From the NCBI GenBank assembly GCA_001603955.1, contig LVAA01000079.1:1-64000 (forward strand): a stretch of DNA of 64,000 nt, in the 5' to 3' direction. Within the stretch, counting starts at the first letter, position 1. The number at the start of each line of letters is the position of its first letter. Under the pieces are notes generated by a model. It worked only from the letters and a program-made list of their open reading frames with translations, did no database searches and was not told the origin of the DNA. Position numbers and translations under genes: made by a program. The DNA comes from Syntrophobacterales bacterium Delta_02. GTDB lineage: Bacteria > Desulfobacterota > Syntrophorhabdia > Syntrophorhabdales > Syntrophorhabdaceae. Shown in pieces: positions 11,668 through 62,637 of the stretch.

Positions 11668-11668
11668 A

Positions 11669-11812
11669 ACGGGCTTGAATAGCTTGAGCCGCTTGAACCG
11701 CTTGAGCGTTTAAAGAAAAAAGAGACCCCTGTCGTGCTCAGTCACACAGGGGTCATTGTCTTTCTAACGTTCAAGCGGCTCTCAAGCCATTCAAGCGGTT
11801 CAAGCCGGTTTT
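11669..11812. repeat. Inverted short-period repeat, unit ~GCTTGAACC (9-10 bp), arms flanking a terminator hairpin
   Basis: Left arm GGCTTGAATAGCTTGAGCCGCTTGAACCGCTTGAGCG; right arm TTCAAGCGGCTCTCAAGCCATTCAAGCGGTTCAAGCC. Confidence 0.75.
11715..11754 (-). terminator. Rho-independent terminator reading on the minus strand, downstream of the tRNA genes
   Basis: Minus strand: GACCCCTGT..loop..ACAGGGGTC followed by TCTCTTTTTTC. Confidence 0.75.
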
Positions 11813-15817: not shown

Positions 15818-16006
15818 AGACAAAGAATAACCAAATCTCAAATCACCAAAGAATGCCAATTCGCTGGATTCCAATGACCAAACGAGATACAGCAATACAC
15901 TCTTGTCCTATCCATCGTATGGTCAATTGGACGTTGGTGAATTTGTCACTATTCTTTTCCCCGGTCATTGGAATTTGGTCATTGGTTATTCTTTCTCTCG
16001 ATCTGC
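15815..16006. repeat. Inverted heptad-like repeat element between convergent dctM and HAD genes (unit ~CCAATGACCAAATT)
   Basis: AAAGAATAACCAA (15832 region) and TTGGTTATTCTTT (15983 region) are perfect 13-bp inverted arms, with further CCAAATCTCAAATCACCAA / GGTCATTGGAATTTGGTCATTGG repeats inside. Confidence 0.75.
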
Positions 16007-31186: not shown

Positions 31187-31460
31187 AGGGGGAAGGGGGA
31201 AGGGATCTCGGGGAGGGAAGGGGCGGATAGGACCAATAGGAGAATAGGACCTATAAGACATATTGGACTTATAGGACAGATAGGACGTATAGGACACCTT
31301 GAAGGCAATTGTTTGCCCGCAGCCGGCGATCGATCCGTCCTATAGGTCCTAAGCGTCCTATAGGTCTTATTGGTCCTATCGGTCCTATTACTCCTATTGG
31401 TCCCATCAAGACCCCTGCCCCCCTTCCCTGATCCCTGCCTCCCGGCCCATATCCCCTTTT
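31187..31460. repeat. Composite inverted-repeat element, copy A: G-rich arm, 10-bp-phased GGACCTATA arms, conserved core, C-rich arm
   Basis: ATAGGACCAATAGGAGAATAGGACCTATAAGACATATTGGACTTATAGGAC...CTTGAAGGCAATTG...GTCCTATAGGTCCTAAGCGTCCTATAGGTCTTATTGGTCCTAT; near-identical to copy B. Confidence 0.9.
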
Positions 31461-32692: not shown

Positions 32693-32810
32693 AGACCGTT
32701 TCAAGTTTTAGGGCAAGAAACGACCGGAAACAGATCGTCGAAAACACGGTCCTTCCGGGAGCTCTTCTTTTGCCTGAAACCTGGAACCTGAAACTTGAAA
32801 CGGTCTTCTA
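32690..32810. repeat. Inverted repeat joining the 3' ends of convergent genes; heptad AGGTTTC family
   Basis: AAGACCGTTTCAAGTTT (after the + gene stop) and AAACTTGAAACGGTCTT (before the - gene stop) are perfect 17-bp inverted arms; right arm also holds CTGAAACCTGGAACCTGAAACTTGAAAC heptads. Confidence 0.85.
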
Positions 32811-38513: not shown

Positions 38514-38760
38514 GGGGTAGATAGAACCGATAGGAGAATAGGACCTATAGGACATATTGGACTTATCGGACACAGATAGGACCAATAGGGCATCTTGAAG
38601 GCAATTGCCCGCCTGCAGCGGCAATCGACCGGTCCTATAGGTCCTAAGCGTCCTATAGGTCTTATTGGTCCTATAGGTCCTATTCTCCTATAAGTCCTAT
38701 CGTCCGTCCCGCTCCCCACCCCCCTCTTCCCTCTCCCCTGTTCCCTGATCCCCCCATCAT
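38461..38760. repeat. Composite inverted-repeat element, copy B; the left G-rich arm overlaps the epimerase 3' coding end
   Basis: ATAGGAGAATAGGACCTATAGGACATATTGGACTTATCGGACA...CTTGAAGGCAATTG...GTCCTATAGGTCCTAAGCGTCCTATAGGTCTTATTGGTCCTAT; ~43 nt identical to copy A across the right arm. Confidence 0.9.
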
Positions 38761-53677: not shown

Positions 53678-53680
53678 GGT

Positions 53681-53802
53681 GATAGGTGCCGGGTAATGGG
53701 TTATAAGTCGACGAAGCAAACCCTCGGAGCCCGATATGTGATGTACCGTTCCACCCATTACCTATTACCTATTGCCTATCACCCATTACCTATTACCTCC
53801 AT
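53681..53802. repeat. Inverted short-period repeat, unit ~ACCTATT (7 bp)
   Basis: GATAGGTGCCGGGTAATGGGTTATAAG ... ACCCATTACCTATTACCTATTGCCTATCACCCATTACCTATTACCT. Confidence 0.75.
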
Positions 53803-61616: not shown

Positions 61617-61800
61617 GGAGAAGGGTCCTGATAGTACCCAATAGGACCTATAGGAAAGATAAGACCTATAGGTCCAGGACCAAATAGAACTTATAAGGCC
61701 CATAAGACCTATTGGTCCCATCTGTCCTATAAGTCCGATATGTCCTATTGGTCCTATTACTCCTATAGGTCCTATCTCCCCCTCTTCTTCTTATTTGATT
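61616..61800. repeat. Composite inverted-repeat element, copy C (degenerate, lacks the copy A/B core)
   Basis: AATAGGACCTATAGGAAAGATAAGACCTATAGGTCC...GGACCAAATAGAACTTATAAGGCCCATAAGACCTATTGGTCCCATCTGTCCTATAAGTCC...GTCCTATTGGTCCTATTACTCCTATAGGTCCTATC. Confidence 0.8.
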
Positions 61801-61839: not shown

Positions 61840-62637
61840 ATGGGAATGGAAAGAGAACGCGAGACGAGACCACCGCTGTCGGTGTACATGATCACCTTCA
61901 ACAACAGGGCCACCATCGCACGGGCGCTCGAGAGCGTCGCCGGATGGGCGGACGAGGTCATCGTCGTCGATTCCCACAGCCCCGACGGCACGGCGGACAT
62001 TGCCCTTACGTACACGCACCAGGTCTTTCACCTTGACACGACGGACCTCAGGGAGAAATACCAGCACGCCCAGGACCGGTGCAGGAACCGCTGGGTCCTC
62101 TTCATCGATGCCGATGAGTGGCTCACGGAGGGCTTCAGAAAAGAGGTGGAGGCCATACTCACCTCCAGTTCCGCAAGCGACGGGTACATCGCGGACCGGC
62201 GCAACATCTACCTGGGGCGGGAGATAAGACACGGGGGCTGGTACCCGGACCGGGAGATACGCCTCTACAGGAAAGACCGGGGCGGCTGGGAGGGCGGCAT
62301 ACACGCGAAGGTGCACGTGGAAGGAAAGGTGGAGCATATGAGGAACCATTACCTCCACACGCCCTACGCGGACTCGGCCCACCAGCTCCGGACCATCGAC
62401 CGCTATTCCGAGGCCTATGCCCGGGACCTTTTCACTGCGGGCCGCAGCTTTCACCTGGCAAACATGCTGCTCCGTCCCGTCTGGCGCTTCTTCAGGGATT
62501 ACATCTTCAAAATGGGTTTCCTCGACGGCGTGCCCGGCGTCATCATCATGGCATCGACCATGTACTACGTCTTCATGAAGCACGCGAGATTGTGGGAGAT
62601 GGAGAGAAACGAGGGAGGGAAGAAAGGTGTTCGATAA
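61840..62637 (+). CDS. Glycosyltransferase family 2 (WaaE/KdtX-like)
   Basis: LSVYMITFNNRATIARALESVAGWADEVIVVDSHSPDGTADIA; RWVLFIDADEWLTEGFRKEV. Confidence 0.92.
   Translation: MGMERERETRPPLSVYMITFNNRATIARALESVAGWADEVIVVDSHSPDGTADIALTYTHQVFHLDTTDLREKYQHAQDRCRNRWVLFIDADEWLTEGFRKEVEAILTSSSASDGYIADRRNIYLGREIRHGGWYPDREIRLYRKDRGGWEGGIHAKVHVEGKVEHMRNHYLHTPYADSAHQLRTIDRYSEAYARDLFTAGRSFHLANMLLRPVWRFFRDYIFKMGFLDGVPGVIIMASTMYYVFMKHARLWEMERNEGGKKGVR

Follow-up and report, generated by a model that had tools for sequence, protein, structure and literature searches.

Intergenic inverted arrays of the ATAGGAC word and of other short words, with replacement of word families at fixed slots

The 64-kb window, that is, the whole stretch of DNA analyzed here, contained three inverted arrays of ATAGGACNN units at positions 31226-31407 (copy A), 38520-38702 (copy B) and 61631-61776 (copy C); these and the other window features given below carry no strand assignment. 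Copy A consisted of a left arm of ATAGGACNN units with one 8-nt step, GGAGAATA (31226-31300), a core running from CTTGAAGGCAATTG to GCAGC (31298-31335) and a right arm of GTCCTAT units inverted with respect to the left arm (31336-31407). The same core was present in copy B (38593-38630), between a left arm (38520-38592) and a right arm (38631-38701) that two congeners retain without change at the orthologous position. Copy C was more diverged and did not contain the A/B core; it was composed of a diverged left arm (61631-61702) and a right arm (61703-61776). A total of 44 matches to the two-unit pattern ATAGGACNWATAGGAC were detected in the window at up to three mismatches, compared with a mean of 1.3 in shuffled sequence.

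Copies A and B were identical over 43 nt of the right arm and also had the start of the core in common, and are therefore dispersed copies of one element, as an earlier sequence-only reading of this DNA had proposed. The same reading had described the arms as mutual inverted repeats of about 75 nt able to form a hairpin. This was confirmed: the left and right arms of copies A to C were inverted repeats of ~75 nt with ~70-80% identity, and the z-scores of the RNA folds were strongly negative (-10 for A, -13 for B and -5.5 for C). The folds of A and B were lengthened by polypurine and polypyrimidine flanks, which in copy A were placed by sequence and fold at 31187-31225 and 31410-31460 and paired with each other. 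The hairpin energy at copy A was strong, and no intrinsic terminator, defined as a GC-rich hairpin with a trailing U-tract, was found there on either strand. Rfam searches of the window at the gathering score returned two tRNAs only, with weak miRNA-type matches far below the cut-off, and literature searches by sequence word yielded no relevant paper. A coding reading was also rejected, since Gly-Pro-Ile, which can be read in one frame per strand, was broken by 8- and 10-nt steps and the arrays lay between genes.

The same architecture was built from other words elsewhere in the window, namely CCGCTTGAR (9 nt; 11668-11812, in a gap with two tRNA genes), CCAATGA (7 nt; 15826-15992), CAGGTTT (7 nt; 32693-32807, between convergent genes) and GGTAATG/GGTGATA (7 nt; 53678-53800). 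By gap folding at sampled loci, words of equal anatomy were identified in the genome to which the window belongs (G000; CCGCTTGAR, CAGGTTT, CCAATGA, GGTAATG, GTCGCAC and AAGTTTT), in Acidobacterium G048 (GAACGAT, GAGTGAC and TGAAAAT) and in other Acidobacteria and Verrucomicrobia (GAAGGCA, GAAAGCA, GAGTGCT and AATGACA). When two of these words were counted in 23 genomes, CAGGTTT was abundant in the genus and in one Hydrogenedentes genome (204 versus 2 matches), and CCGCTTGAR in the genus only. The word profiles varied among congeners, G008 having the CCGCTTGA word (166) without the other two. Separate dispersed families were also encountered. The palindrome CGTCATCCCGGCGAAGGCCGGGATCCAGG, which resembles the CGTC-tagged REP superfamily, was found in G000 at C200:61058-61394 and 62061-62399 and in G010 at slot C200:149914. 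A near-perfect inverted repeat, TAAGTTGGTTTTCGGGGGTCACACCTGGAAAATCAACTTA, was present in at least three gaps of G048 (loci L200-L209; C9:93850, C7:85077 and C9:13037).

The assembly of G000 comprised 4.03 Mb in 285 contigs and was 98% complete. With one mismatch allowed, the two-unit pattern ATAGGACNNATAGGAC gave 384 matches in this genome versus three for the reversed control, and at least 49 ATAGGACNN arrays, all intergenic, were detected, so that the further copies expected from the window do exist. A strict parse yielded 26 elements of the form F-core-R, three of the form R-F and 32 one-sided runs. The polarity was therefore ATAGGAC arm, core, GTCCTAT arm in 26 of 29 arm pairs, and in G048 it was FR in 15 cases and RF in none. 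In reversed (R-F) elements at L021 3114-3279, L031 3248-3335 and L056 2978-3091, the GTCC arm leads and the conserved GTCCTAAGCGTCC end is on the outer side rather than the inner one. Word arrays were also seen at the starts or ends of contigs (G000 C180:8, C220:11, C249:186 and C252:179, and several contigs of G010 and G004). The array hairpins probably break short-read assembly. Because most genomes are drafts and arrays coincide with contig ends, the array counts are lower bounds.

At the sampled loci of G000, neighboring units were spaced by 9 nt in 261 of 361 pairs and by 10 nt in 25, and the 7-base word was constant while the following two bases varied. The units had been taken as phased at 10 bp, with every GGAC on one face of B-DNA. 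Neither proposal stands: the period is 9, and a 9-bp step turns each unit by ~50 degrees from the last, so that no single helix face carries all the units. The spacing thus departs from that of a phased protein-binding array (~10.5 bp on one helix face), and the arrays have the property of short-word tandem repeats (STRR or long SSR), a word of 5-11 nt repeated above chance. Cyanobacterial STRR heptamers are likewise degenerate short-word intergenic arrays; here, the word length and the taxon differ.

Among the congeners, which included Syntrophorhabdus sp. PtaB.Bin047 (G010), Syntrophorhabdus sp. PtaB.Bin184 (G001) and Deltaproteobacteria UBA1386 (G005), ATAGGACNNATAGGAC had 41-428 matches at one mismatch in six genomes, two of them incomplete assemblies, and 0-10 in five others. 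Copies are thus present in relatives, in about half of the genus. A scan across phyla, made with the ATAGGAC word only, detected the exact inverted pattern of 26 fixed bases in 53 stretches of a genome collection covering 85,462 species. The carriers were distributed in Syntrophorhabdus, Acidobacteria, Hydrogenedentes, Planctomycetota, Phycisphaerales, Opitutaceae, other Verrucomicrobia, Lentisphaeria, Oligosphaera ethanolica, Prevotella pectinovora and one Patescibacterium. The 17 searchable carrier genomes had 31-770 matches each versus 0-14 for the control, and their close relatives sometimes had no arrays at all. Among 196 genomes from the phylum of Oligosphaera, five had at least 20 matches and most had none. 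One of these five, G212, was dropped as an array genome, since its arrays were one-sided and lay inside larger repeats, a different thing from the inverted cassettes; at loci L194-L199 it displayed one-sided GTAGGACATATAGGACGTATAGGAC arrays within longer dispersed repeats, in which the word is kept and the architecture differs. A plasmid search, made with an array-flanking gene only, gave no match.

Such a distribution could be accounted for if the arrays were bound by a sequence-specific protein that reads ATAGGAC every 9 bases in DNA or RNA and that has moved horizontally between phyla along with its sites. The constant 7-base word beside two variable bases, the spacing held at 9, the fixed polarity, the same word in several phyla at counts far above the controls and the near all-or-none spread (5 of 196 genomes in one phylum, about half of the genus) would all be in agreement with such a protein. 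However, the 9-bp step takes the units off a common helix face, no common protein was identified and unrelated words occupy orthologous slots (see below), and we consider this explanation unlikely. A further possibility, which we also regard as rather unlikely, is that bacteria of several phyla build their inverted, hairpin-forming cassettes from a small common vocabulary of 7- and 9-nt words, and that a horizontally carried machinery writes or copies whole cassettes, with both arms of an orthologous slot re-worded at once.

Comparison of orthologous gaps among congeners showed that the flanking genes stay in place while the gap holds a different word family or nothing. At site A, ATAGGAC arrays were found in G000, G010 and G001, GTTCAAG in G005, CAGGTTT in G004 and G002, and the AACCAATAA/TTGGTTATT type in one genome; the site was almost empty, with a short spacer, in G003, G007 and G009. 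At site B, the ATAGGAC array was common to G000, G010 and G004 (with the right arm of G004 at a contig start), a stub remained in G005, and CCAATGA words were present instead in G001 and G002. Site C was present in five genomes, and in G010 its arms were shorter yet symmetrical. Contig C200 contained five switching slots (146277, 149914, 150420, 154929 and 156421). The slot at 154929 had CCGCTTGAA in three genomes, CAGGTTCC in G010 and GTTCAAG in G004, and that at 150420 had three different words and one empty gap of 21 nt. In C200 slots, two congeners carried ATAGGAC arms where G000 has CCGCTTGA. Presence at orthologous loci therefore does vary, arrays being swapped, shortened or absent. At sites A and B, the slot was followed by a conserved stretch that, by eye, resembles the promoter of the next gene. 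A short ORF that we named by eye as ThiS-like lay beside the word arrays at slot C200:146277 in G005 and G010; in G004 it seems, by eye, to be a fragment only. In the slot alignments the whole spacer was replaced with no clean insertion boundary, the congeners being ~85% identical or less. We conclude firmly that these are intergenic inverted word arrays with replacement of families at fixed slots. Such switching requires a concerted change of both arms, which point mutation and slippage can hardly bring about.

The near-identity of the dispersed copies A and B, the solitary, FR and RF forms, which resemble REP singlets and doublets, the empty orthologous slots and the contigs ending in arrays could indicate a MITE- or REPIN-like element mobilized in trans by a transposase. 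However, the REP-associated transposase RAYT (Y1_Tnp, PF01797) had no matches in G000, G041, G047 and G006; the genomes without it include Prevotella and Lentisphaeria UBA1724, and RAYT dependence could be ruled out for G000, which is 98% complete and has no PF01797. No transposase was found among the recurrent array neighbors sampled, and the slot alignments, which compared congeners at ~85% identity or less, had no clean insertion boundaries. Mobilization in trans therefore appears quite improbable to us. In the printed copies, inspected by eye, no constant GTAG or CGTC tag adjoining a palindrome of 20-40 bp was found, the arm unit being 9 nt, and no enzyme moving the cassettes was found. 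An autonomous element beside the arrays was likewise rejected, since the only protein cluster that recurred at many array loci consisted, in the members checked, of common two-component and PAS proteins.

Compensatory changes in the arms, which the earlier reading had named as a check, were searched for at three orthologous sites. None of the 18 changed base pairs was a double change; eight stayed paired and 10 broke. In an arm-swap test, native arms folded better in 13 of 25 cases in G000, which equals chance, and in 12 of 14 cases in G048. Since no changes were compensatory and the arms were interchangeable, selection at the level of base pairs is not seen in G000; what was demonstrated there is the gross symmetry of the arms.

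The lack of compensatory changes, the many word families, the favored slippage length of heptamers discussed previously (PMC4679880) and a genus in which no member, array-free congeners included, has an SbcD above the cutoff would all be expected if replication slippage and strand switching had left the arrays behind as a functionless by-product in genomes that tolerate long palindromes. However, slippage explains neither the fixed polarity nor identical words across phyla, and it is in conflict with the arrays of G048, which are flush with stop codons and avoid divergent gaps. SbcD was present in the array-bearing genomes G041, G042, G047 and G074, and array-free congeners lacked it; given this distribution, SbcCD loss is neither sufficient nor necessary as a switch for the arrays. 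We therefore judge a functionless by-product to be very unlikely.

All three copies had been said to start at the stop codon of a gene. This holds loosely for A to C, where the arms begin 7-40 nt past the stop, and fails genome-wide, as nine of the 46 array gaps in G000 lay between divergent genes. Five divergent gaps were backed by Pfam, which matched 9 of the 10 flanking proteins, and such arrays rule out a strict restriction to 3' ends in this genome. On contiguous tiles, the ATAGGAC arrays of G000 were located in 15 tandem, two convergent and five divergent gaps, an orientation that matches the background (P=0.73) and does not bear out the expected restriction to 3' gene ends. In contrast, divergent gaps were avoided by the other inverted repeats of G000 (1/27, P=0.011) and, in G048, by both the ATAGGAC arrays (1/19, P=0.008) and the other inverted repeats (1/25, P=0.0007); the background in these hypergeometric tests was gaps of at least 100 bp, a limit chosen after the gap sizes had been seen, and genes were called with a simple custom hexamer caller. 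In G048, 21 of 22 flanking 3' ends lay within 20 nt of an array edge, and arrays abutted stop codons. REP elements lie next to 3' ends and avoid divergent gaps (PMC3733652), a pattern like that of G048. Because the ATAGGAC family of G000 also occurs between divergent genes, part of its abundance is probably due to selfish or neutral spread.

We place the ATAGGAC elements with the extragenic palindromic and short-word repeats, as a variant for which no REP transposase, Rfam family or literature entry was found to account. Like the REP/BIME elements of the GTAG and CGTC superfamilies (PMC3733652), they are intergenic, palindromic and multicopy, and occur as singlets and inverted doublets; in G048 they also adjoin 3' ends, as most REP/BIME elements do, and a stop codon may be supplied by their termini. 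However, the REP/BIME unit is a palindrome of 20-40 bp that carries a GTAG or CGTC tag (PMC3733652), whereas here a 9-nt (or 7-nt) word is repeated 2-9 times per arm around an untagged core and the genome has no RAYT. REPINs are also inverted pairs of a short repeat dispersed in a genome (PMC3116915; PMC2817692), but RAYT, part of the REPIN/RAYT systems, is missing in G000, G041 and G047. The TAACTGA heptamer repeats of Beggiatoaceae, cyanobacteria and Bacteroidetes are similarly intergenic, patchily distributed in distant lineages and subject to word-sized indels (PMC4679880). Those arrays are direct, with one inverted case in 170 sets, and in Beggiatoaceae most of them immediately precede start codons (PMC4679880), while the arrays described here are inverted pairs. 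In the deltaproteobacterium Geobacter metallireducens, a multicopy element with GGAC consists of four tandem heptamers, GGGACCG or consensus GGACCGG; it differs in being a heptamer, in having 49 copies that also occur within genes and in not being described as inverted arms (PMC2700814).

Taken together, we give about even credence to the explanation that the ATAGGAC elements are non-autonomous hairpin cassettes which spread and replace one another within a wider class of such cassettes and may act as barriers at transcript ends. Each cassette has a core flanked by two inverted short arrays, both built from a degenerate 7- or 9-nt word, so either strand can fold into one long hairpin. Copying or recombination would spread each cassette in one piece, and the arms would lengthen or shorten by word-sized slippage. 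In most slots, which lie between convergent genes or separate a stop codon from the promoter that follows, the hairpin may behave as an extragenic palindrome that blocks read-through or marks the transcript end, its shape weighing more than its letters. The barrier role is suggested by position and shape, best in G048. The lack of support for base-pair selection in G000, the background-like orientation in G000, the failure to find an enzyme that moves the cassettes and the missing U-tract at copy A count against the cassette and barrier explanation, as does the recurrence of one nonamer across phyla, for which hairpin shape alone does not account.

The switching at fixed slots suggests that whole cassettes are replaced or that their synthesis is self-templated. 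Since the nonamer is nearly all-or-none in the genus, the responsible factor can be searched for by comparing array-rich with array-free congeners. The cassettes coincide with contig ends and merit annotation in their own right instead of a label as low-complexity spacer.
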